Shown: positions 44,212-56,735, numbered from the stretch's first letter. The stretch is DNA of 56,735 nt from Desulfurellaceae bacterium (GCA_021296095.1 JAGWBB010000021.1:1107-57841), one strand, 5' to 3'. Numbers and translations: made by a program. The notes: a model not told the origin generated them from the sequence alone.

Positions 44212-45495
44212 TCATTTGCCCTTGAGCATCAGGGTCATCACGCTGAACTGGGTGTCGCTCATGGGTCGATTGTGAAAGATTTTGAAAATCTGAAACGTGT
44301 TGGACATCTCCAGCTGATAATCAATCGAGGCCTGGGCGGCGGTCTGGGGAAACCACTCGGCGTTATCCCAGGGGTTATAGTCCGGGTGACGGTAGACCAG
44401 CAGAAAGGTGCGTTTGTGATTGCCGTCGTGGTCGTAGGCAAGAGCAAACAGCGGGACTGAGGTCTGGACATCCAGATACAGCAGGCGGCGACTGTACAGG
44501 GGGTGGGAATTCTTGGGCGTCATCTCCAACACATCGGCGTGGCGCAGCTCCCACGGATCGGTCAGATACCACGTGCCGCGTCCGCCCCAGGTCGGCTCGG
44601 CCGCCTTGATCGGCCCCGGGGTCAGCACGACCCGGCGGCCCAGATATGTCCAGTCGTAATCGTGGATATAGCCCAGGAAGCCCGACCGGTCCTCAATCAG
44701 CACGACGCCGTTGCCGGGCGAAACATACGGGTTATACACAATTTTGCGGGTGCGACGGGTCTTGGGGTCGTAGGCCCACTGATCGTTGGCCAGCCGGTCG
44801 TCGTTGTAGAGCACACTCAGGATCTGATTGCCCTCCGAATCCGAGGGGGCGACCATCATCGTATACTGCTTCGAGAAGACGCCCTGCTTCTGCCACGGCG
44901 CGACGTTTTCGTCTGACGCCGGCCGGTGCATGCCGTGCTTGAAGGAAAACAGGAAGCGCTGTTCGCGCTCCACCGTTCCGCTGCCGTTGCGCAGCCCGTT
45001 CGAGGCCCACATCAGGGCGGTTTCGCCCTGGTCCCGATAGCGGTGGTTCCAGGCCATCTTGAGACCGGCCTGGGGGTCGCCGACCTCAACAACCGGAAAG
45101 GGCCGGCCGGCCACATAGTTGCCGAGCGTACCCTCGCCGAGCGTCACCCCGGCGGCGTGCTGGACGGTCGCGTCGATAAACGCCTGGCGCAGCGGAGTAT
45201 CGGTCGTTTCGCGGATAGTGACCGAAAAATCGCCGGCCTCGACATAGCGCACAATCTCCGGCGGCAGCACCTCTGTGGCCAGCTGGGCGGTTGACGAGTC
45301 GAGCGTCATGCCCGGGGTGATGCCCTCGACCTGCGGAAAGCCGTCCTGATACGGGAAAAATCCGGCCAGGACGGACGCTCGGCCCTGGCCGGCAGCAGCC
45401 CCGGCCGACATGAGTCCGAGGATACACATGAGGCTGAAAATCCGGGAAATCTGCGAAATCTGCAAAGTCTGCAAAATCTGATGAATACGGCGCAT
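44212..45495 (-). CDS. DUF1329 family protein, second copy
   Basis: A 427-residue exported protein with the family signature AYDPKTRRTRKIVYNPY, DYDWTYLGRR and RRLLYLDVQTSVPLFALAYDHDG. The hydrophobic core of the signal peptide is FSLMCILGLMSAGAAAG, preceded by an unusual n-region (QILQTLQISQISRIF) coded by imperfect 9-bp tandem repeats (45437-45480). DUF1329 is predicted to have a LolB-like lipid-binding fold and to work at the outer membrane. It is the last gene of the RND cluster, 52 bp after the barrel gene. GAAAGAAGGAAT precedes the ATG at 45495; a longer frame starts at 45519. Confidence 0.8.
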   Translation of the reverse strand: MRRIHQILQTLQISQISRIFSLMCILGLMSAGAAAGQGRASVLAGFFPYQDGFPQVEGITPGMTLDSSTAQLATEVLPPEIVRYVEAGDFSVTIRETTDTPLRQAFIDATVQHAAGVTLGEGTLGNYVAGRPFPVVEVGDPQAGLKMAWNHRYRDQGETALMWASNGLRNGSGTVEREQRFLFSFKHGMHRPASDENVAPWQKQGVFSKQYTMMVAPSDSEGNQILSVLYNDDRLANDQWAYDPKTRRTRKIVYNPYVSPGNGVVLIEDRSGFLGYIHDYDWTYLGRRVVLTPGPIKAAEPTWGGRGTWYLTDPWELRHADVLEMTPKNSHPLYSRRLLYLDVQTSVPLFALAYDHDGNHKRTFLLVYRHPDYNPWDNAEWFPQTAAQASIDYQLEMSNTFQIFKIFHNRPMSDTQFSVMTLMLKGK

Positions 45496-45547
45496 TATTC
45501 CTTCTTTCCGATGTGGCACGGGCAGGCCCGGCGGCCGGCCCCTCCAT

Positions 45548-46873
45548 TCACAGAGAAAACGAGCGTTTGACCTCCAGAAAAACCCGGCCGTTTCTACCCG
45601 TAAAATAGCCCCGTCTCAGCCGCCGTGCCGGAGCCGCGTACTGGCCGAAGAAGCCCGAGCGGGGCCCGATAAAGAAGTCCGCGCCGAGCGTGACCGACAG
45701 ATAATCGGTGAGCTGATACTCGATCTGGGGCCGGATCAGCAACTCCCCGAAATTGATACCGTACAGGGCGATCAGTTCGGGAAACAGCGTTTCGTTGATG
45801 AAGTCGGCGCGCAGAAAGACCGAGACGATATTGTTGACCGCCTCGTCCGGAATATCGCTGGGCTTGTTGAAGATCACGTTCTGAAAAAACTGGAAGTTGG
45901 CCATCAGGTTGTCGTTGACCGTCCAGTCCAGGCCCAGCACATAGGACAAAAACTCGCGCTGGCGGATACCGTCCGCATCCCGGAGGTCGGTCGACACAAA
46001 ATGTTGTCCCAGTTTCAGCCCGCCTTCGCCCCGGATGACGAACACGTCAAAGGCGTAGTTGAAGGTCCCGCCCAGCAGGTGAAAGCGGGTGTGGCGCGGC
46101 TCAACCAGAAACCGGTTGCCGCCAATCGTGCGCCGGAAGCCGACCGGGAAATCGCTCCAGGCGTAAAAATAATTCAGCGACACGTCCATATTGCGCATGA
46201 AGCGGGTGACCCGAAAGCCGACCTCGGAATCGCTCAGCCGGCCGTCCCGGGGTTTTTTGGTCTTGGCCAGCTGGATCGCAGGAGATTGCAGGAACAGGTC
46301 GAGCTGTCCGCTCTCCCGGAACTGCCACTCGCTGCCCAGGTCTGCGGGCCGGTTGTCCTCAAAGTCGAGAAACCACACGCCCTCAAACACCCAGTCGCCG
46401 AAGGTGTAATCGAGCCGTGTGCCCCACAGCGGGATGCGCGCGTCAATGAAGTCGTCGAGGATGAACTCCCGAAAATCCTGGGGATTGATGACATCCAGAA
46501 TCCGCAGGCCGAGCGATTCGCCCCACACCACCTGCTGGCGGCCGACCCGCAGGTCAAAATCGCCCTGGACGATTTCGAGATACAGCTCACGCAGCTCGGC
46601 CTGGAAAAAATCGCCGCTGGCCCAGCGGTCAATCGGCCCGGCGCCAAAGTCGTGGGTGTTGCTCTCCAGGTGGTTGGCCGGATCGATCAGCGCCCGCCCG
46701 ATCGAGGTCAGGGTCATCCAGTCGCTCAGCTCGATATCAACGTCGATCTCCAGCCAGTTCTGGGCCTTGGAGAACTGACGCGGCGAGTACAACCGAAAGG
46801 CGGTCTCGTTTTTGATGAAGGCCACCCCGTCAATCCGCTCCTGCCACAGCTGGTGGACCCAGCTCGGCAGCAT
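45548..46873 (-). CDS. Outer-membrane beta-barrel protein (DUF1302-like) without its own signal peptide
   Basis: A 441-residue protein rich in alternating aromatic strands (DFDLRVGRQQVVWGESLG, WFLDFEDNRPADLG, LNYFYAWSDFP, QYAAPARRLRRGYF), as in DUF1302-type porin-like barrels. It begins MLPSWVHQLWQERIDGVAFIKNETAF with no signal sequence, which is odd for an outer-membrane protein. Its start overlaps the end of the AMIN gene by 44 bases in the +1 frame, and an A6 run sits just before the ATG. Loss of one base there would fuse it to the AMIN protein, which does have a signal peptide. GGAGGA lies ten bases before the ATG, so separate translation is possible. The C-terminus ends SFSL rather than with Phe. 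Confidence 0.7.
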   Translation of the reverse strand: MLPSWVHQLWQERIDGVAFIKNETAFRLYSPRQFSKAQNWLEIDVDIELSDWMTLTSIGRALIDPANHLESNTHDFGAGPIDRWASGDFFQAELRELYLEIVQGDFDLRVGRQQVVWGESLGLRILDVINPQDFREFILDDFIDARIPLWGTRLDYTFGDWVFEGVWFLDFEDNRPADLGSEWQFRESGQLDLFLQSPAIQLAKTKKPRDGRLSDSEVGFRVTRFMRNMDVSLNYFYAWSDFPVGFRRTIGGNRFLVEPRHTRFHLLGGTFNYAFDVFVIRGEGGLKLGQHFVSTDLRDADGIRQREFLSYVLGLDWTVNDNLMANFQFFQNVIFNKPSDIPDEAVNNIVSVFLRADFINETLFPELIALYGINFGELLIRPQIEYQLTDYLSVTLGADFFIGPRSGFFGQYAAPARRLRRGYFTGRNGRVFLEVKRSFSL

Positions 46874-47942
46874 ACTTTTTTCGTCCTCCGGTCACGGCCG
46901 GAACAAATGCCTGGCGGGTGGGCGGCGGCGCCGGAGGCGGCGCGGGCGCGGGAGCTTCAGCCACAGTGGGCGCGGTCGGGGCCGGACGCGGTGCGGCCGG
47001 TGTCCGGGCGGCCAGGGCGGTCGTACCCGGCCGCCGAAACAACACCTGGGCTTGCACTCCCTCAGCCGGCGACTGGGCAAAGACCAGACGCAGCCGGTTT
47101 TCCTGCTGGCGTACCTCAAACGGCGGGATTTGGCTGCCGCTCAGGTCAACCACAAAGCGCAGCCGGTCCGAATGAGAGCCGACCCGCACCGCGCTGACCA
47201 GGGCGTCGCGCGCCGTGTAGCGTGCCGACGGCCCGGGCGCGACCGGCCCGGTCACATCGAGCACCAGCCGGGGCGGGTCGGACAGGGCAAAAGACCGTAC
47301 GCTGTGGGGCGACTGGGAGAACACGAAGCTGAGCGCCTGGCGGTCGTCCTCAAGCCCGAGCTGGAGTTCGTCCAGGTGCAGCCCGGCCGCCGCAGGCGTC
47401 GCTTCGCCGGACGCGGTCGGGGCGGAGGCCTGCGGCCGAGCGGACGGGGCGGCTGGGGTCGCGGACGCCGTCTGACCGGACGCGGTGCGGAGCGGCGGAA
47501 AGAGCTGCCGGCTGGCCTCGCGGGCGTCCCCCGGGGTTTGGACAAGCGCGCTCAGCCGCGTGCCGTCGTGCTCGATGGTATAGCTTGGCAGGCTGTCGGT
47601 CTTGAAGTCGAGTACAAAGCGCAGGCGCTGGGGATGCGCGCCCTGGCGGATACGCCACACGGTCTCGTCGTGGGTTGTATAGCTGGTCGAGATCGTCCCC
47701 TGGGCCGGACCACTGACATCGATGACCAGCCGGGGCGGGTCGGACAGGCCAAAGGCTTTCACCTCGGTCGGGGCGGTCGAGAAGCGCCAGTTCAGCCGCT
47801 TGTGGCCGGCGGTGGATTCGAGCCGGAGTTCCTGGACCTCAAGCACGAGCGGCCCGGAAGCCCGCAGTTCAGCGGTCTGGGGACCGAGTCCGACAAAGAG
47901 TCCGAGCCAGCCCAAGGTGATAATCCGACGCAGTGTTTTCAT
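46830..47942 (-). CDS. Periplasmic protein with two AMIN-like domains and a Pro/Ala-rich tail
   Basis: A 370-residue protein with signal peptide IITLGWLGLFVGLG. AMIN-type beta domains are at about 35-135 and 190-290, each with the SDPPRLVxDVxGP motif (residues 67-79 and 221-233). A Pro/Ala-rich linker lies between them (150-187) and another at 310-345. AMIN domains bind peptidoglycan or position envelope machines, as in AmiC and PilQ. The last 16 residues, from K355, follow an A6 run and read through the start of the barrel gene in another frame, so the natural C-terminus may instead be the barrel. There is a weak ribosome-binding site at 47942 and a 145-bp gap to the LolA-like gene. Confidence 0.75.
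   Translation of the reverse strand: MKTLRRIITLGWLGLFVGLGPQTAELRASGPLVLEVQELRLESTAGHKRLNWRFSTAPTEVKAFGLSDPPRLVIDVSGPAQGTISTSYTTHDETVWRIRQGAHPQRLRFVLDFKTDSLPSYTIEHDGTRLSALVQTPGDAREASRQLFPPLRTASGQTASATPAAPSARPQASAPTASGEATPAAAGLHLDELQLGLEDDRQALSFVFSQSPHSVRSFALSDPPRLVLDVTGPVAPGPSARYTARDALVSAVRVGSHSDRLRFVVDLSGSQIPPFEVRQQENRLRLVFAQSPAEGVQAQVLFRRPGTTALAARTPAAPRPAPTAPTVAEAPAPAPPPAPPPTRQAFVPAVTGGRKKYAAELGPPAVAGAD
46876..46881 (-). other. A6 run at the AMIN/barrel frame junction
   Basis: Six A residues on the coding strand cover codons 354-356 of the AMIN gene. The barrel frame is +1 relative to it, and the barrel ATG is two bases further on. Deleting one A, by mutation, read error or polymerase slippage, would give a continuous frame of about 797 codons. 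Confidence 0.6.
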
Positions 47943-48041
47943 GTGTCTTGACCGTGAGCCGTCAGGTGCGCCAGATTTCAGCTCCCCACTCCGGCATCCG
48001 CCCTCCGAGCCTCAGAGCGCCCCCTCGCACGGGCGGCGCTC

Positions 48042-48080
48042 TTCAGCATTCATCGTTCAGCATTCATCGTTCAGCATTCA
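48042..48080. repeat. 14-bp tandem repeat
   Basis: TTCAGCATTCATCG occurs twice in tandem (48042-48055, 48056-48069), followed by a partial copy. It lies in the gap between the LolA-like and AMIN genes. The related sequence GAATGCCGAATGATGAAC occurs at about 28461-28478. Confidence 0.8.
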
Positions 48081-48087
48081 GCATTAT

Positions 48088-48885
48088 CTAGGGCGCGCCC
48101 TTGCGCAGGGAACGCTCGGTGAACAGACTCTCCCGAAAGCCCTGGTTGAATTTCACATTGCTGATATCCAGCTCGGTCTTGTGACCGGTGAGCTGATTTT
48201 CGACCACCGTTTTTCTCCAGTTCCAGATGCCGTCGATCTGCACCCAGTCCTGGTACATGATCTTGAGCAGGCGACCCTTGCGGTCGTAGAACTCGATCTT
48301 GGGCGTTGTCCAGGTCTCGGCATTCACCCAGGTCAGCTTCTTGCTGTAGATGTAGTTTTCCTTTTTGGCCACCGCCTGGACCACATACAGCTTGGTGCCG
48401 TTGTTCTGTTCAACCCGGACCAGGGTGTGGGTGTCTTCCTCAACCTCGCGGTCGCCCATGTCGTCGTAGATCATGTCGCTGCCCATGAACGAGTTTTCCT
48501 TGTCGCCCGAGGCAATCCGCCGCACCTTGCGCAGGGCCGGCAGATAGATCCACTGGTCGTCGTCGGCATCGGCGTCCTCCTGGGACCAGTTCAGGAAGGT
48601 GGTGTCTTTGACATCCGGCGGCGAGCTGAAATAGATGAACGACTTGCTCGACAGCCCGTCATTGCCGTCATAGTCCTTCCAGTAGCGCAGGGTGTGACGC
48701 TTGCGCTGTTTACCGGCCTTATTGGTCAGCGTCCAGCTCGCCTCAGACACCTGATCGTCGCCGTCTTCGCGCTCATCAACATTGATCGCAATCTGGAGGC
48801 CGCTCGGCTCGCCCGGAATCTCTTCCGCTCCGGCGGGCACGGGGGCCAACAGCATAACTCCAGCCACTAGCAGAACAGTTCGCAT
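48088..48885 (-). CDS. Outer-membrane lipoprotein-sorting (LolA-like) family protein
   Basis: A 265-residue exported protein with signal peptide VLLVAGVMLLAPVPAGA. The pattern ASWTLTNKAGKQRKRHTLRYWKDYDG, FIYFSSPPDVKDTTFLNW, DDQWIYLPALRKVRRIASGDKENSFMGSDMIYDDMG is diagnostic for the LolA-like group (COG2834/PF17131-type) that is encoded beside MMPL transporters. It is a periplasmic half-barrel expected to bind a lipid-like ligand and to accept it from, or deliver it to, the RND pump. GAAGGAGAAAGATT precedes the ATG. It lies 21 bp after the last RND gene. Confidence 0.88.
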   Translation of the reverse strand: MRTVLLVAGVMLLAPVPAGAEEIPGEPSGLQIAINVDEREDGDDQVSEASWTLTNKAGKQRKRHTLRYWKDYDGNDGLSSKSFIYFSSPPDVKDTTFLNWSQEDADADDDQWIYLPALRKVRRIASGDKENSFMGSDMIYDDMGDREVEEDTHTLVRVEQNNGTKLYVVQAVAKKENYIYSKKLTWVNAETWTTPKIEFYDRKGRLLKIMYQDWVQIDGIWNWRKTVVENQLTGHKTELDISNVKFNQGFRESLFTERSLRKGAP

Positions 48886-48906
48886 AATCTTTCTCCTTCC
48901 TCTCGC

Positions 48907-51423
48907 TTAGGCCCTGTCTTCAGGGCGGGTTGTCACAACAGCCCCGTTGTGTGGACCGTACACAAAACGGGGCTTCCACGTATTCAACATCACCGGCAGC
49001 AGCGTCATCGAGGCCACCAGGCACGCCCCCATGTTCAGCGCCATCATCGCTCCCAGATAGTAGTTGGGCAGGAATTTCGAGGTCAGAAAGACGAGGAAGC
49101 CACCGATGACCACGACGGCATTGAAGAAGATGGCTTTGCCCGAGGTCACCATGGTGGCCAGGGTGATCGCTTCCGGGTCGGTCAATCCCTCACGCACTTT
49201 GAGCCGATACTTGTTGAGAAAATGAATCGTATAGTCGATCCCGACCCCGATGACCATCGAGGCGGTGAGCGATTTGCCGATTTCCAGCGGGCTCTGGAGC
49301 AGGCCCAGCAGACCGAAGCTGAAGATGATCACCACCCCGATGGGAATGACCGTGATCAGACCGGCCGTGAGCGACCGGAACATGAGCGCGGTGAGGACGA
49401 ACACCGCCCCCAACGAGGTGACCAGGCTGGCAGCCTGGCTGCTGACGACCAGCTCGCTCATCCGGTTGACAAAATACCCGTTGCCGGCAAAGCCGATACG
49501 AAAGCCGCTTTGGGTCTCCCAGTTGGTGATCGTCGGCTCGATGTTGACCAGCCAGCGCCCCAGGCGGATGGACAGCGGATCGCGGTGGCTCAGCTGTCCG
49601 TTATCGACCAACTCCGCCCGCCCGAACTGCTCCTCGGCAAAGTCTTGAGCCCGCTGGACCACCCGCAGCACATCGTCGGTGCTGTCGGAGCGCAGGTAAA
49701 ACGCCACGTTGGCGTGCTGGTAGTCATAATCGACGACCTCGTCGAAATCGTCCGGGTCGCCGGAGAACGAGTACAGCAGCAGGTACTGGGCCACCAGGTC
49801 ACGGTCGGTCGGCACGACCTCCATCTCGGGCCGGTCCTCGTTCATGATCCGGTTCATGCGCTTGACGTACTCGGCGATGGACACCGAGCCGCCGACCATG
49901 GGGTCCTGTTCGACCTCGGCCTGCAGCAGGTCGAGTTTGGCCAGCAGACCGGGATCTTTGAGCCGGTCGGGCTCATGCCCCTCGATCACCACATACACGG
50001 GCGTCGTGCCCTGGAAGGTGTCCCGCAAGATCCGATCCGCAGTGCGGACCGGACTGTCGGGATGAAAGATGCCGATGGGTGAGGAATCGACCGGAATATA
50101 GCGGCTGCCGACCAGACACAGGCCAACAATCCCCAGCGTCGGCAGCCACACCAGCAGCGGCCGCCGGGCCACACCTCGGCCCAGGACGGCCAGCGTCCGG
50201 GCCGCCCAGCCGGTCGCCGCCAGGTCACCGCTGCGCCGCATCTGGCGCACCAGACCCCGGCTGACCTTGGCCGGCAGCATGGACAGCAGGGCCGGGAAGA
50301 GGGTCAGGGAGAAGACCATGGCCGCCAGCACGCCAAAGGCGGTGAAAAATCCGAACTGACGGATCGGGGGCATCGGAGCGGCCACAAACGACAGGAAGCC
50401 CGCCGCCGTGGTCAGCGAGGTGAACACCACCGGCCGCCACATCTCGCACAGGGCGGCCACGGTCGCCTCGGACGAGGACAGCTGCGGGTGCTCCAGAAGT
50501 TCGTCGTAGTAGCGGCTCAGAATATGAATGCCGTCGGCCACCCCGATCGCCATCAGCACAACCGGCAGCATGGTCGAAATGAAGAACATCGGGACTTCGA
50601 GCGCCGCCATCAGCCCCAGGGTCCAGATCACCGCTCCGACCACCACCACCAGGGGCAGGAGCACGCCGCGCAGACTCCGGTAGGTACAGTACAGCGCCCC
50701 GAGCACGACCAGCACGACCAGGGGCAGGAAGGTCTGCATGTCCTCACGCCCATAGTCACCGACCATCACCTCGATGGCGCCCCGGCCGGCGATATAAAAG
50801 GCTTCAGGCGCCCCGGCATCCTGCTGGGCCTGGACCATGTGTTCGATCGCGCTATAGACGGCCATCCGGCGCGCCACTCCCTCAAGCGTCCCCCCGGACT
50901 CCTCCATTTTGGCCATAATCAGCAGCCCGGTGCTGTCCTGCGACACCAGCCAGTTGACGTACATTGGGTTGCCGAACAGATTCTCTTTGAGCGCGCCCAG
51001 CGCCTCGGGCGTGTCCGGCACGTCCTCCATGAACGGGTTGACGGCCATGCCGTCGGCCGTGCCGGTGATATTATCCATGGTCGCTACGCTGGCGATGTCT
51101 TCATCCCGGACCGCCTTGATGCCCGGCAACAGGGCAATCTGCTCGGACAGGTCTTTGACAATGCCCAGCGTGCGCGGGTTGAACACGCCGTTTTCGGCCG
51201 GGTTGGTGTTCAGCACGCCAATGACAATCAGGTCACGGATGCCAAAGCGGTCTTCGACCAGGTCACTGTAGTGCAGGACCGGATCGTCGGTTGGAATCAT
51301 GGCCTCGGCATCGCTCTCAAAGCGCAGCGTGCTCATTTGCACCCAGGCCAGCCCAGTGCAGCCCAGGACCAGGCCGATAGTCAGCCACCGAAAGCGGAGG
51401 ATGGTGCGAAAGACGGCTTCCAT
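48907..51423 (-). CDS. MMPL/RND family transporter, copy 1
   Basis: An 838-residue inner-membrane protein with the 12-helix MMPL layout: one N-terminal helix, a periplasmic loop of about 200 residues, five helices (about 230-400), a second helix near 430, a second periplasmic loop, and five C-terminal helices. Typical segments are LPVVLMAIGVADGIHILSRYYDE and VIGVGIDYTIHFLNKYR. It belongs to the COG1033 group related to HpnN and MmpL proteins, which move lipids, hopanoids or wax-like molecules using proton flow. No MexB-type adaptor or TolC gene is seen. It is 11 bp after copy 2 and 21 bp before the LolA-like gene. Confidence 0.9.
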   Translation of the reverse strand: MEAVFRTILRFRWLTIGLVLGCTGLAWVQMSTLRFESDAEAMIPTDDPVLHYSDLVEDRFGIRDLIVIGVLNTNPAENGVFNPRTLGIVKDLSEQIALLPGIKAVRDEDIASVATMDNITGTADGMAVNPFMEDVPDTPEALGALKENLFGNPMYVNWLVSQDSTGLLIMAKMEESGGTLEGVARRMAVYSAIEHMVQAQQDAGAPEAFYIAGRGAIEVMVGDYGREDMQTFLPLVVLVVLGALYCTYRSLRGVLLPLVVVVGAVIWTLGLMAALEVPMFFISTMLPVVLMAIGVADGIHILSRYYDELLEHPQLSSSEATVAALCEMWRPVVFTSLTTAAGFLSFVAAPMPPIRQFGFFTAFGVLAAMVFSLTLFPALLSMLPAKVSRGLVRQMRRSGDLAATGWAARTLAVLGRGVARRPLLVWLPTLGIVGLCLVGSRYIPVDSSPIGIFHPDSPVRTADRILRDTFQGTTPVYVVIEGHEPDRLKDPGLLAKLDLLQAEVEQDPMVGGSVSIAEYVKRMNRIMNEDRPEMEVVPTDRDLVAQYLLLYSFSGDPDDFDEVVDYDYQHANVAFYLRSDSTDDVLRVVQRAQDFAEEQFGRAELVDNGQLSHRDPLSIRLGRWLVNIEPTITNWETQSGFRIGFAGNGYFVNRMSELVVSSQAASLVTSLGAVFVLTALMFRSLTAGLITVIPIGVVIIFSFGLLGLLQSPLEIGKSLTASMVIGVGIDYTIHFLNKYRLKVREGLTDPEAITLATMVTSGKAIFFNAVVVIGGFLVFLTSKFLPNYYLGAMMALNMGACLVASMTLLPVMLNTWKPRFVYGPHNGAVVTTRPEDRA

Positions 51424-51434
51424 GACGCCTTGCC

Positions 51435-53915
51435 TCAGAGCACGTTCTCCCGGCCGTACACAAACCGGGGTTTACAGGTATTCAGGATGGCCGGCAGAAC
51501 CGTCATCGACACCAGCAGACAGGCGCCCATGTTGAGCATCAGCATGGCGCCCAGATAAAAATTGGGCATAAAGTTGGAACTCAGAAACACGGCAAAACCG
51601 CCGATGACCACCACCGCATTAAAAAAGATGGCCTTGCCCGAGGTCGCCATGGTCGCCACGGTGATGGCGGTCGGCTGGCTCAGCCCGCTGCGGACCTTGA
51701 GCCGGTATTTACTCAGAAAGTGAATCGTGTAGTCGATGCCGATGCCGATCACCATCGACGAGGTCAGGGCCTTGCCGATCTCAAGCTCAAGGCCGAACAG
51801 GCCCATCACGCCAAAGCTGAAGATGATCACAATGCCGATCGGGATGACGTTGACCAGACCGGCGACCACGGAGCGGAACATGAACGCGGTCAGCACAAAG
51901 ACCGCGCCCAGCGAGACCAGCAGGCTCGACACCTGACCGCTGATGACCAGCTCGCTCAAGTGGTAGGTGAAATAGGCGCCGCCGGCAAAACCGATCCGAA
52001 AGCCCTGGTCCGTCTCCCAACCGGTCTGCACCGGCGCCAGGTCGAGCAGCCGGCGGCCGACCCGCAGCGCCAGCGGCTCGGCGTCGGCCTCGCCAGCCTG
52101 CTCTGCACGGCCAAACTCGGCCAGGGCATAGTCCTGGACCTGTCTGACCACGTGGGCAATTTCCCGGCTGCTGTCCTCACGCAGGTAAAACGCCACGTTG
52201 GCGTACTGATAGTCGTAGTCGACCACCTCGTCGAAGTCGTCCGGCTCACCCGAGAAGGAGTACAGCAGCAGGTACTGGGCAACCAGGTCGCGGTTGGTGG
52301 GGATGACCTCCATCTCGGGCCGGTCTTCGTTCATCACCCGGTTCATGCGCTTGATGAACTCGGCGATGGACACCGAGCCGCCCACAATCGGGTTCTGCTC
52401 GGCCGCAGCCTGCATGCGGTCAATCTGCTGCAACAGGCCGGGGTCTTTGAGCCGGTCGGCCTCGTGGCCCTCGATCACGACGTACAGCGGGACGGTGCCC
52501 TGAAACTTCTGGCGCAGGACGCCCTCGGCGACGCGGATGGAGCTGGAGTCGGGAAAAATACGGATGGCCGAGGTGTTGACCACAATGCGCTGGGTGCCGG
52601 CCAGACACACCAGGACAACGACTACGCTCGGCACCCACACCAGCAGCGGACGCTGGGCCACGCTGCGGCCCAGCCAGGCCAGGCCCCGGGCCGCCCAGCC
52701 GGTGGCGGCCAGGTCACCGCTACGGGCCATCTGGCGGGCCAGGCCACGGCTGACCTTGACCGGCAGCATGGACAGCACCGCAGGCAGCAGGGTCAGCGAT
52801 AAGACCATCGCCACCAGCACCCCGACGGCGGCAAACAGGCCAAAGTCGCGCTGGGGCGGCATGGGAGCGGTCAGAAACGACAGGAAGCCGGCCGCGGTGG
52901 TCAGCGAGGTCAGCATCACCGGCAGCCACATTTCGCTCATCGTGGCCACTACGGCCGTCGGTCCGTCGGTGTCCGGGTGTTCCAGAATCTCGTCGTAGTA
53001 GCGGCTCAGAATGTGAATCCCGTCCGCCACCCCGATCGCCATCAGGACGACCGGCATCATGGTCGAGATGAAGTACAGCGGAAAGCCGAGCCCGCCCATC
53101 AGACCCAGGGTCCAGATCACCGACCCGACCACCACCGCAAACGGCAGCAGTACGCCGCGCAGGCTGCGATAGGTCAGGTACAGCGTCAGCAGCACCACGC
53201 CGAGCACCAACGGCAGAAAGGTGGCCATGTCCTGGCGGCCGTAGCGGCCGACCGTGATCTCCATCGCCCCGCGGCCGGCCACATACAGCTGCTCGGGCAC
53301 GCCGGCGTCGCGTTTGGCCTGGACCATGGCCTCGATGGCGTTATACGCCTCGGCGCGCTGGGCCAGCCCGGCGGTGTTATCCACCGCCGACTCCAGCTTG
53401 GCCATGATCAGCAGCCCGGTGCCGTCGCGCGACACCAGCCAATCGACATACATCTCGTTACGAAACAGATTGTTCCGCAGAGCGGCCAGCGCTTCCGGCG
53501 TGTCGGGCACGCTTTCCATGAACGGATCGACCGCCATGCCGTCGGCCGTGCCGGTGATATTGTCCATGGTCGCCACACTCGACACGTCCTCGTCGCGCAC
53601 GGCCTTGATGCCGGGCAGCAGGGCGATCTTTTCGGACAGCTCCTTGACGATGGCCAGGGTGCGCGGGTTGAACACGCCGTTTTCGTCGGGATTCTCGTTC
53701 AGCACCCCGACCACGATGTTGTCGCGCATGCCAAAGCGGTCTTCGACCTGTTCCTTGTACATGCTGACCGGGTTGTCGGCCGGCACCATGGCGTCCAGAT
53801 CGCTCTCAAAGCGCAGATGGTTGCGCAGCTGTCCCCAGGCGAGGACCGAGATGCCCAGGACCAGGGCAATGATCAGCCAGCGCAGGCGGATCACGACCTG
53901 AAAGAACGACTTCAT
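51435..53915 (-). CDS. MMPL/RND family transporter, copy 2
   Basis: An 826-residue paralogue of copy 1 with the same helix plan and near-identical motifs (MMPVVLMAIGVADGIHILSRYYDE, VIGIGIDYTIHFLSKYR, DDFDEVVDYDYQYANVAFYLRED). Its start overlaps the stop of copy 3 by four bases (53912-53915), so translation is coupled. Both periplasmic loops are complete. Three or four consecutive homologues could form a hetero-oligomeric pump or handle related substrates. Inner membrane. Confidence 0.9.
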   Translation of the reverse strand: MKSFFQVVIRLRWLIIALVLGISVLAWGQLRNHLRFESDLDAMVPADNPVSMYKEQVEDRFGMRDNIVVGVLNENPDENGVFNPRTLAIVKELSEKIALLPGIKAVRDEDVSSVATMDNITGTADGMAVDPFMESVPDTPEALAALRNNLFRNEMYVDWLVSRDGTGLLIMAKLESAVDNTAGLAQRAEAYNAIEAMVQAKRDAGVPEQLYVAGRGAMEITVGRYGRQDMATFLPLVLGVVLLTLYLTYRSLRGVLLPFAVVVGSVIWTLGLMGGLGFPLYFISTMMPVVLMAIGVADGIHILSRYYDEILEHPDTDGPTAVVATMSEMWLPVMLTSLTTAAGFLSFLTAPMPPQRDFGLFAAVGVLVAMVLSLTLLPAVLSMLPVKVSRGLARQMARSGDLAATGWAARGLAWLGRSVAQRPLLVWVPSVVVVLVCLAGTQRIVVNTSAIRIFPDSSSIRVAEGVLRQKFQGTVPLYVVIEGHEADRLKDPGLLQQIDRMQAAAEQNPIVGGSVSIAEFIKRMNRVMNEDRPEMEVIPTNRDLVAQYLLLYSFSGEPDDFDEVVDYDYQYANVAFYLREDSSREIAHVVRQVQDYALAEFGRAEQAGEADAEPLALRVGRRLLDLAPVQTGWETDQGFRIGFAGGAYFTYHLSELVISGQVSSLLVSLGAVFVLTAFMFRSVVAGLVNVIPIGIVIIFSFGVMGLFGLELEIGKALTSSMVIGIGIDYTIHFLSKYRLKVRSGLSQPTAITVATMATSGKAIFFNAVVVIGGFAVFLSSNFMPNFYLGAMLMLNMGACLLVSMTVLPAILNTCKPRFVYGRENVL

Positions 53916-56416
53916 GCCGAGGGGGCTCCCTCCTGCTCCCGACCGAAGCCGAGGCCCGCGTCCGGCTCTTGCGGCTCCGGCCGTACGACCACGGGCGAGG
54001 TCCTGGCGTACACAAAGCGAGGCTTCCAGGTGTTCAGAATCGCCGGCAACACCGTCATCGACACCAAGAGGCAGGCGCCCATATTCAGCGACAGCATCGC
54101 CCCCAGGTAAAAATTGGGCCGAAAGTTTGAGGTCAGGAAAACCAGGAAGCTCGCCGTCACAACCAGCGCATTAAAAAAGATGGCTTTGCCCGAGGTCGCC
54201 ATCGTCGCGGCGGTAATCTTTTCCGGGTCCGTCAGGCCAGCGCGGACTTTAATCCGATATTTATTCAGGAAGTGGATCGTATAATCGATGCCAATCCCAA
54301 TCACCATGGAGGCGGTCAGCGATTTGCCAACCTCCAGGGGGATGCCGAGGAGTCCAAGCAGGCCAAAACTGAAAATCATCACCAGACTGATCGGGATGAT
54401 ATTGATCAGCCCGGCGACCCAGGAGCGAAACATGAACGCCGTCAAGGAAAAGACCGCGACCAGGGAGACGACCAGACTCGCCAGCTGGCCGGACACGACC
54501 AGTTCGCTGAAACGGGTGGTCAGATAGCCATTGCCGGCAATCCCCAGCCGAAAACCGCTGTTGGTGTCCCAGCCGGTCACCGTCGGCTCAATGCCGGCCA
54601 GCCAGCGTCCAAAGCGGATAGACCACGGGTCCCGTGAGCCGGTATCGGCCGTGCCGGTATCGCCCGCCTGCCCAAACTCACGCACGGCAAAGTCTTGCAC
54701 AATCCCAACCACGCGTTCGATGTCCTGGGTGCTGTCCGAGCGCACATAATCCACGATTTCATCAAAATCGTCCGGGTCGCCAGAGAAGGAATACAGCAAC
54801 AGGTATTGGGCGACGAGGTCTTGCGAGTCCGGAATCACTTCCATTTCGGGCCGATCCTCGTTCATCACCCGGTTCATGCGTTTGATATACTCGGCTAAGG
54901 AGAGCGATCCGCCAACGATAGGGTCTTGTTCGACGACGGTTTGGAGGCGGTCGAGTTGGGCGAGCAGCCCCGGATCTTTGAGCAGATCGGGCTGATGTCC
55001 TTCAATCGCGATATACAGCGGCAGATTGCCTTGGAATGTCTCGCCCAAGACGGTATCCGCAATCCGCACCGGACTGTTGGGGTCGGACATCTTGATAAAT
55101 GAGGTATCGACAAAAATGCGCTGCGCACCAAACAGACACACCAGCATGACACCGGTTGTCACGCCCCACACCACGAGTGGTTTTCGCGCCACGCCGACGC
55201 CTAAGCGGGACAGCGTCCGGGCCGCCCAGCCCGTCGCCGCCAGGTCACCACTGCGGCCCATCTGGGCGCGCAAGCCACGGCTGACCTTGACCGGCAGGAG
55301 GCTTAACAGGGCCGGAAAAAAGGTGATGGAGAAGACCATCGCGGCCAAGACGCCAATGGAGGTAAAGATGCCGAAATAGCGGATCGGGAGAATGCTGGCG
55401 GTCAGGAAGGAGAGAAACCCGGCCGCCGTCGTCAGCGAGGTGAAGACCACCGGCTGCCACATCTCTCGCATCGCGGCGAGGACCGCATCGGCCGAGGAAA
55501 CGTCCGGGTGTTGCAAGACCTCGTCGTAATAGCGGCTCAGAATATGAATCCCATTTGCCACCCCGACCGCCATCAGGATGACCGGCATCATGGTCGAAAT
55601 GGAGTACATCGGCACACCCACGGTCGCCATAATGCCTAAGGTCCACATCACGGAGGCGCCGACCACCGCCAAGGGGAGCAAGACGCCGCGCACACTCCGA
55701 TAGGTAAAATACAGCGTGCCGAGGACAATCACGAGGAAGGTCTCCATGTCCTGCCGCATCCCCTCCTCAAAGGTGACCTCCAGAGCGCCTTGGCCCGCAA
55801 CATGGAATTCCTCTGGAGCGCCGGCCGCTTTTTTCGCCGCAACCATGTCCCGGATCGTCGTATAAACAGCCATCCGTCTGGCCGTACCCTCGAGAGTCCC
55901 TCCGCCAGGCTCCATTTTGGCCGTGATAAGCATCCCGGTACCGTCCTGGGAGACGATCCAATTCACGAACATCGAGTTGTGAAACAGAGCCTGCTGTAAT
56001 GCGGCGAGTGACTCGGGTGAGTGCGGCACCGTTTCCATGAACGGATCAACGGCCATGCCGTCCGCCGTACCGGTGATATTATCGAGCGTGGCCACACTCG
56101 CCACGTCTTCGATGCCGGGCAGCAGGGCGATCTTTTCCGAGAATTCTTTGATCGTGGCCAAGGTCCGTGGATTAAAGACGCCGTTTTCGTCCGGATTTTT
56201 ATTCAGCACCCCAATAACAATCAGGTCGCGAATACCGAAACGCTCCTCGACCAGGTCGTTATAACTCATAACCGGGTCGTTTTGGGGAATAAAAGCGTCG
56301 GCATCGCCCTCAAAGCGGAGCGACTGCACCTGGATCCAGGCCAGGCCGGTACAGGCCAGAACAAGGCCAATGACCAGGAAACGAAAGCGGATGATCAAGC
56401 GGAAAAATGAATCCAT
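53912..56416 (-). CDS. MMPL/RND family transporter, copy 3, with short internal losses
   Basis: An 834-residue paralogue with the full 12-helix plan. Against copies 1 and 2 it lacks five residues after LLPGI near 105, four residues in the second helix (TFLVIVLGTLYFTYRS) and ten residues after DDFDEIVDY near 560, all in frame. The loss in the second helix should shorten a membrane span. The C-terminus is longer and Glu/Pro-rich (VRPEPQEPDAG). Codon use is slightly more AT-rich than in copies 1 and 2. The start at 56416 is 71 bp after the stop of copy 4. It may be a specialised or decaying subunit. Confidence 0.88.
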   Translation of the reverse strand: MDSFFRLIIRFRFLVIGLVLACTGLAWIQVQSLRFEGDADAFIPQNDPVMSYNDLVEERFGIRDLIVIGVLNKNPDENGVFNPRTLATIKEFSEKIALLPGIEDVASVATLDNITGTADGMAVDPFMETVPHSPESLAALQQALFHNSMFVNWIVSQDGTGMLITAKMEPGGGTLEGTARRMAVYTTIRDMVAAKKAAGAPEEFHVAGQGALEVTFEEGMRQDMETFLVIVLGTLYFTYRSVRGVLLPLAVVGASVMWTLGIMATVGVPMYSISTMMPVILMAVGVANGIHILSRYYDEVLQHPDVSSADAVLAAMREMWQPVVFTSLTTAAGFLSFLTASILPIRYFGIFTSIGVLAAMVFSITFFPALLSLLPVKVSRGLRAQMGRSGDLAATGWAARTLSRLGVGVARKPLVVWGVTTGVMLVCLFGAQRIFVDTSFIKMSDPNSPVRIADTVLGETFQGNLPLYIAIEGHQPDLLKDPGLLAQLDRLQTVVEQDPIVGGSLSLAEYIKRMNRVMNEDRPEMEVIPDSQDLVAQYLLLYSFSGDPDDFDEIVDYVRSDSTQDIERVVGIVQDFAVREFGQAGDTGTADTGSRDPWSIRFGRWLAGIEPTVTGWDTNSGFRLGIAGNGYLTTRFSELVVSGQLASLVVSLVAVFSLTAFMFRSWVAGLINIIPISLVMIFSFGLLGLLGIPLEVGKSLTASMVIGIGIDYTIHFLNKYRIKVRAGLTDPEKITAATMATSGKAIFFNALVVTASFLVFLTSNFRPNFYLGAMLSLNMGACLLVSMTVLPAILNTWKPRFVYARTSPVVVRPEPQEPDAGLGFGREQEGAPSA

Positions 56417-56487
56417 TCTTACCGTAGCTCCTTATACTTCTGGCACTTCCAAATGGATGTAGATACGAGTGCGTGAGTTCACAGATA

Positions 56488-56735
56488 TCAGGCCTCAGAT
56501 TCTTGGACGGCCACGAGTCGCGCTTCTTTATTGCCATACACAAAACGCGGTTTAAACCGATTCAAGATCGCCGGCAGGACCGTCATCGAGACGATCAAGC
56601 AGGCTCCCATACTGAGAGACAGCATGACACCCAGGTAAAAGAGGGACTCGAAGTTTGAGGTGAGAAAAATCAGGAAGCCGCCGATAACCACGACCGCATT
56701 AAAAAAGATGGCCTTGCCGGAGGTGGCCATCGTGG
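56488..56735 (-). CDS. MMPL/RND family transporter, copy 4, C-terminal end only
   Basis: The frame enters from the right edge and gives the last 82 residues: ATSGKAIFFNAVVVIGGFLIFLTSNF, two helices and the VLPAILNRFKPRFVYGNKEA tail shared by the other three copies. The rest lies outside the window. It shows that the tandem array contains at least four transporters. Confidence 0.88.
   Translation of the reverse strand, partial: TMATSGKAIFFNAVVVIGGFLIFLTSNFESLFYLGVMLSLSMGACLIVSMTVLPAILNRFKPRFVYGNKEARLVAVQESEA

Follow-up and report, generated by a model that had tools for sequence, protein, structure and literature searches.

Tandem RND genes, a LolA-like carrier gene and an AMIN-barrel gene in Candidatus Binatota: a candidate trans-envelope relay for hydrophobic molecules

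The DNA analysed here, called the window throughout, is a stretch of 56,735 nucleotides (C21:1107-57841) from a genome of the uncultured lineage Candidatus Binatota; its end coincides with the end of the contig (57841). Pfam matches give, on the minus strand throughout, the order RND genes, LolA-like gene, AMIN, DUF1302 and DUF1329, which is the same-strand order of the original prediction. Three MMPL/RND transporter genes are complete: RND3 (53912..56416, 834 aa, 158 bits, also placed by tree and alignment), RND2 (51435..53915, 826 aa, 149 bits, 93% identical to RNDc of G001, a genome of the same genus) and RND1 (48907..51423, 838 aa, 157 bits, 96% identical to its G001 counterpart), the last adjoining the carrier gene. 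These MMPL scores (149–158 bits) lie above the PF03176 gathering score of 20.5. At least four RND genes had been predicted, and four are present, although only the last 81 codons of the fourth (RND4, 56488..56735; PF03176 match at C21:57666-57839) precede the cut made by the contig end. The carrier gene (48088..48885, 265 aa; PF17131, 197 bits) is followed by an AMIN-AMIN-barrel gene (45548..47942) and, 52 nt beyond the barrel stop, by a DUF1329 ORF of the LolA superfamily (44212-45519; PF07044, 126 bits), for which the sequence suggests an ATG at 45495 as the likely start. Among the cluster ORFs of the window scanned with Pfam, no match was found to an HlyD-type adaptor, a TolC-type channel or a COG4447-type protein. 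Promoter and terminator scans returned counts close to the shuffled expectation.

The AMIN protein and the barrel had been described as two separate genes, a description that the relatives exclude. Each of the eight relatives that carry the locus has one AMIN-barrel protein of 644–795 aa: in G001 it is a single 795-aa ORF (L056:2355-4742), in which DUF1302 comes after two AMIN stretches, and in seven genomes of a sister genus a single ORF of 644–671 aa. Since the ORF is single in all eight, AMIN and barrel are read as one gene, with AMIN as the N-terminal part of the barrel protein. In the window this gene is split into two overlapping ORFs in different frames. The upstream ORF (46830..47942, 370 aa) carries an apparent signal peptide, two AMIN domains (PF11741, two stretches) and a Pro-rich linker, and the downstream ORF (45548..46873, 441 aa) carries the DUF1302-like outer-membrane barrel, detached and without a signal peptide of its own. 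Pairwise alignment and the raw sequence place the frame change at 46873..46905 within the linker, where a net 17-nt gap relative to G001 (around 46889) shifts the frame. Programmed frameshifting at the A-AAA-AAG motif near 46880 was considered and rejected, as a -1 slip misses the barrel frame and the 17-nt gap, which lies upstream of the motif, has by then already put the reading out of frame. The dN/dS values against G001 are 0.13 for the barrel and 0.33 for the AMIN part (0.20 for LolA and 0.11 for RND1) and indicate purifying selection on both halves, so the break is either recent or an assembly error. Unless it is the latter, the source strain may have no intact AMIN-barrel protein.

Both halves pass their Pfam cut-offs, the AMIN part with 60.8 bits in the window and 57.9 in the G001 fusion, and the barrel with 53.9 bits for DUF1302 (PF06980). 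PilQ is the sole PDB match of the AMIN part (E 0.009), and a search with the barrel profile gave no PDB sequence match at E 0.1. In the model of the intact G001 protein the barrel is confident and the first AMIN domain is poorly modelled. The best structural matches of this barrel are OprD/Occ porins and AlgE (Z about 21–22.6). OprD/Occ porins and AlgE are 18-stranded barrels, and the modelled barrel probably has about 18 strands too. A porin-like fold is not proof of function.

The neighbourhood of this gene in the sister genus defines what is conserved. There, a single RND gene stands in the arrangement TetR-RND-LolA-like-[AMIN-barrel]; the RND and LolA genes overlap by 4 nt, and 12–13 nt separate LolA from the barrel. 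The TetR gene was called whole in five of the sister-genus genomes, and in two its frame was missed by the simple gene caller. Comparison of gene order thus points to a conserved operon consisting of TetR, a single RND, the LolA-like gene and the AMIN-barrel gene. The original prediction of a conserved unit of five families in one order fails at two places: DUF1329 is an add-on, and the extra RND copies of the sister genus lie at a separate locus with neither carrier nor barrel. Co-occurrence in the sister genus holds for the TetR-RND-LolA-like-[AMIN-barrel] core, while DUF1329 and the RND array of that genus are found elsewhere. Its orthologue of DUF1329 (65%), with a DUF1302 of its own coming next, is separated from the LolA-like gene by about 670 kb in G007 and 1.2 Mb in G015. 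Judged by this arrangement, DUF1329 is a genus-specific neighbour outside the conserved operon, beside which it moved in the lineage of the window; the G001 contig stops short of dating the move. A five-gene unit including DUF1329 is rejected for lack of conservation in the sister genus. That genus has further AMIN proteins around a separate DUF1302-DUF1329 cluster (L226 4669-14450 and L227 5278-13649), with a TetR-like gene in L226.

The RND genes are best matched, among NCBIfam subfamilies, by TIGR00921 (HAE3), with 223–249 bits against a curated cut-off of 351.9, and may be called HAE3-like, under the family cut-off. Two lipid-transporter assignments were rejected: HpnN, the hopanoid transporter (110–131 bits for TIGR03480, cut-off 751.85; 57–74 bits for NF052374, cut-off 1100), and BstA, the sterol transporter (15–39 bits for NF045600, cut-off 1400). 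A second contig of the source genome (C110) carries TetR, RNDa and the first 52 codons of another RND gene, and probably supplies the upstream end of the array that C21 lacks. The best match of both its RND start and the RND4 tail is one sister-genus gene, arr2 (92–94% and 95–98% amino acid identity, respectively), and for this reason the two pieces probably belong to one gene interrupted by an assembly gap; the total would then be five RNDs. G001 has TetR-RNDa-RNDb-RNDc and RND1-LolA-AMIN-barrel on two different contigs, and the sister genus keeps its array of three RND genes at the separate locus. The tandem linkage of the array to the carrier/barrel operon, as far as gene order tells, is specific to the genus of the window, in which RND has been multiplied to at least four copies, probably five, with carrier and barrel remaining single. 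Because the sister-genus array stands apart from carrier and barrel, some RND copies may work without them. Alignment shows that the TM4 residue before GIH varies among the RND copies (Y, A, D or N) and that the TM10 motif GIDYTIH is invariant across Binatota copies; the TM4 variation suggests divergence of the proton path among the copies.

Several features of the array and its genome are recorded separately. RND3 contains three in-frame deletions (5, 4 and 10 aa) not present in its orthologues. It shares 93% identity with the sister genus against 87% with its own, and in the RND4 tail DNA identity with the sister genus reaches 96%. Such a pattern could stem from recombination between lineages or from a chimeric assembly. 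Scattered RND-like pieces over a short stretch at G000:C6:2348-4793 appear to be a decayed RND copy of the array. The source genome also contains further RND/DUF1302/DUF1329 clusters and an ABC-LolA-like cluster (L017 2399-7756, L018 7187-13252, L019 and L025).

The pairing of carrier and barrel recurs with different engines. A search of 395 genomes of the phylum found a same-strand LolA-like gene in 26 of 29 barrel-seeded loci, and in 10 an RND gene and in 7 a LolCDE-type FtsX permease no further than 5 kb away; of 30 LolA-seeded loci, a barrel is adjacent in 19 and an RND gene in 12. As the sets were seeded, these figures do not tell how common the arrangements are in genomes at large, and some neighbours are hidden by short contigs. 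The orders RND-LolA-barrel or LolA-barrel-RND, without AMIN, occur in Vecturithrix-type UASB270 (with a TetR gene), in Desulfobacteraceae and in a record labelled Halanaerobium. Many Desulfobacterota have a LolCDE-like ABC transporter in place of RND. Five loci of this phylum (L151, L152, L153, L155 and L156) are operons of a LolD-like ATPase, an FtsX permease, a LolA-like protein and a DUF1302 barrel. In G038, one 1089-aa ORF matches both RND and LolA profiles and is followed by a barrel (L198 4833-8102), a possible RND-LolA fusion. The predicted combination of RND pump, LolA-fold carrier and outer-membrane barrel, without adaptor or TolC, is supported by the order conserved in Binatota and other phyla and by the AmeABCD system (PMC6394551).

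The nature of the engines also bears on direction. DUF1302 barrels could import instead of export, and the OprD/Occ-like fold is that of uptake porins; the barrel and the LolA-fold protein might then bring a hydrophobic nutrient in, with the RND protein reversed or acting as a sensor. RND transporters, however, move their substrates outward from the inner membrane or periplasm, and the ABC proteins that replace them are MacB/LolCDE-type extractors, which are of the export type. The TetR, MMPL, lipoprotein-sorting and hypothetical genes of Porphyromonas gingivalis are among those most raised under hemin limitation, as uptake genes would be (PMC10470040, PMC10434189). Weighing these, we regard import as improbable.

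The LolA-like protein has an apparent Sec signal, lacks a lipobox and is 95% identical to its G001 counterpart; no close LolA-like relative was found in other genera of the same family. It passes the PF17131 cut-off, and its AF2 model (pLDDT 91.6) predicts a LolA3-type fold, nearest to P. gingivalis LolA3 (PDB 9tp6; 39% identity, target TM-score 0.94–0.95). To our knowledge, no RND pump acts as a lipoprotein extractor, which argues against a specialised lipoprotein-sorting pathway in which RND or ABC extracts particular lipoproteins and the LolA-like protein and the barrel bring them to the outer membrane. The LolA fold itself and the LolCDE-like partners in Desulfobacterota would suit such a pathway, and a comparable proposal has been made for Borrelia BBJ23-29 (PMC13078400). 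The LolA3 structure has a hydrophobic groove (PMC13103446). This protein, the nearest solved relative of the carrier, lacks the LolA arginine and binds LolB only weakly (PMC13103446), and loss of lolA3 in F. johnsoniae leaves gliding and amylase secretion unaffected (PMC11885536). Lipoprotein sorting is accordingly the reading to which we give least credence, and it is very improbable.

The barrel end of the proposed route is where AMIN enters. AMIN-DUF1302 fusions above the Pfam cut-off are found in Binatota and in barrels of families f10 and f57, and a further case in f70 falls below the threshold. The f10 fusion is accompanied by TetR, LolA and two or three RND genes, and the f57 fusion by an ABC engine, so that AMIN-barrels in three branches are found with both engine types. 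A tree built from 42 barrel domains requires the AMIN label to change three times; well-supported branches force this count, and it is stable in bootstrap trees. Three independent gains of AMIN are the simplest reading, although some mixtures of gain and loss may also fit the tree. The long N-termini of the f28 barrels (L126 and L133) were considered as AMIN and received no support from Pfam or hhalign; the extension is coiled-coil-like where other barrels have AMIN. In another family of the class, G037 carries TetR-LolA-AMIN-barrel-RND-RND with a divergent RND gene nearby (L184 2696-13499), an independent case of an AMIN-barrel with several RND genes. No description of AMIN fused to a DUF1302 barrel was found in the literature searched. 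The predicted role of AMIN as a wall anchor is strengthened by the fusions in three tree branches, with the correction that AMIN is the barrel's own domain and not a separate protein. It is tempting to extend this to a general class of wall-anchored lipid routes, in which a fixed LolA-fold carrier and an AMIN-tethered barrel are fitted with RND or LolCDE-like ABC engines and the anchor was gained independently several times; such a class is conceivable, and we hold it as a tentative proposal with doubt prevailing.

For the locus itself, the reading favoured, with modest confidence, is a trans-envelope relay in which a hydrophobic or amphiphilic molecule passes from RND to LolA-fold carrier to AMIN-tethered barrel. 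It is preferred because of the gene order, the exchange of RND for LolCDE-like ABC engines while LolA and barrel remain paired, and the effects of deleting AmeABCD (PMC6394551). The MMPL/RND pump, driven by the proton gradient, would take the molecule out of the inner membrane; the soluble LolA-fold protein would hold it in its groove and carry it across the periplasm; and the porin-like DUF1302-type barrel would receive it, for insertion into the outer membrane or release through it. The N-terminal AMIN domains, for which peptidoglycan binding is predicted from AMIN proteins elsewhere, would tether the barrel end to the wall. The TetR-type regulator beside the first RND gene would control the operon, and the multiplied RND step may widen or tune the range of cargo. 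What the analysis shows directly is gene content, order and conservation, the AMIN-barrel fusion, the LolA3-like fold, the porin-like barrel model and the exchange of RND for an ABC engine in relatives. We infer the class of cargo (lipid in the original prediction), its outward direction, the binding to peptidoglycan, the control by TetR and the contact between parts.

The set could instead serve inducible efflux of toxic hydrophobics (terpenes, alkanes, aromatics), like AmeABCD, with RND copies widening the compound range and with no envelope-building role. A TetR gene is adjacent, luciferase-like monooxygenases flank the sister-genus operon, and deletion of AmeABCD lowers monoterpene tolerance and raises Nile Red uptake (PMC6394551). 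Yet the carrier has a LolA fold and is not a sealed adaptor, the LolCDE-like extractors of the ABC versions fit a lipid-like cargo better, and efflux has no need of a wall anchor. Detoxification of this kind is considered unlikely.

The relay reading bears on two questions: by what means a hydrophobic molecule could pass through the periplasm when no sealed tube encloses it, and what keeps such a route in place at the outer membrane. One carrier-barrel pair with two engines and a probable wall anchor in three branches points to a modular delivery end, and raises the question of whether AMIN places the barrel where the carrier meets the wall. Related operons exist in cultured bacteria (Castellaniella, Porphyromonas and Prevotella).

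Compared with known systems, classical tripartite HAE1 RND efflux differs in the HlyD-type adaptor and TolC-type channel, both absent from the scanned cluster ORFs of the window. The LolCDE-LolA-LolB pathway shares with the locus an extractor, a soluble LolA-fold carrier and an outer-membrane receiver, but the engine of the locus is RND instead of LolCDE ABC, and its receiver is a barrel instead of a lipoprotein. PilQ secretin also places AMIN domains N-terminal to an outer-membrane channel, although this is a multimeric channel for pili and not a DUF1302 barrel. Veillonella OmpM differs in having no RND or LolA link and a wall-binding part that is SLH and not AMIN. Like the locus, it joins a porin-type barrel to a wall-binding N-terminal part, and it is among the structural matches (PDB 8bym/8bys). 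Borrelia BBJ23-29, a proposed ABC-LolA-barrel export cluster, brings together an inner-membrane extractor, a LolA-like carrier and an outer-membrane barrel, with a non-polar ligand proposed (PMC13078400); it differs in its MacB-like ABC engine and Omp85-type barrel. The Porphyromonas/Prevotella operon PG1175-81, hemin/iron-regulated in Bacteroidota, comprises TetR, MMPL, outer-membrane-lipoprotein-sorting and hypothetical genes (PMC10434189, PMC10470040), and so resembles the locus in TetR, MMPL and LolA-like genes followed by a further gene; it differs in also having ABC ATP-binding proteins, and no AMIN is reported.

The closest described relative of the locus is AmeABCD of Castellaniella defragrans, composed of DUF1302, DUF1329, COG4447 and an HAE3 RND (PMC6394551). 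Each cassette combines an RND, of HAE3 type in AmeABCD (PMC6394551) and HAE3-like in the locus, with a DUF1302 protein of the outer membrane and a periplasmic protein of the LolA superfamily, and no HlyD adaptor or TolC is described for AmeABCD. The carrier side differs, being DUF1329 plus a COG4447 protein in AmeABCD and PF17131 LolA_like in the locus, where the COG4447 type was not found in the scanned ORFs; a DUF1329 gene is present in the window, but the sister genus has it far from the operon. Unlike AmeABCD, the locus has AMIN domains on its barrel and a multiplied RND. Already known, then, are HAE3-type RND cassettes with DUF1302 and LolA-superfamily proteins, TetR-MMPL-LolA-like operons and the ABC-LolA-barrel proposal for Borrelia.
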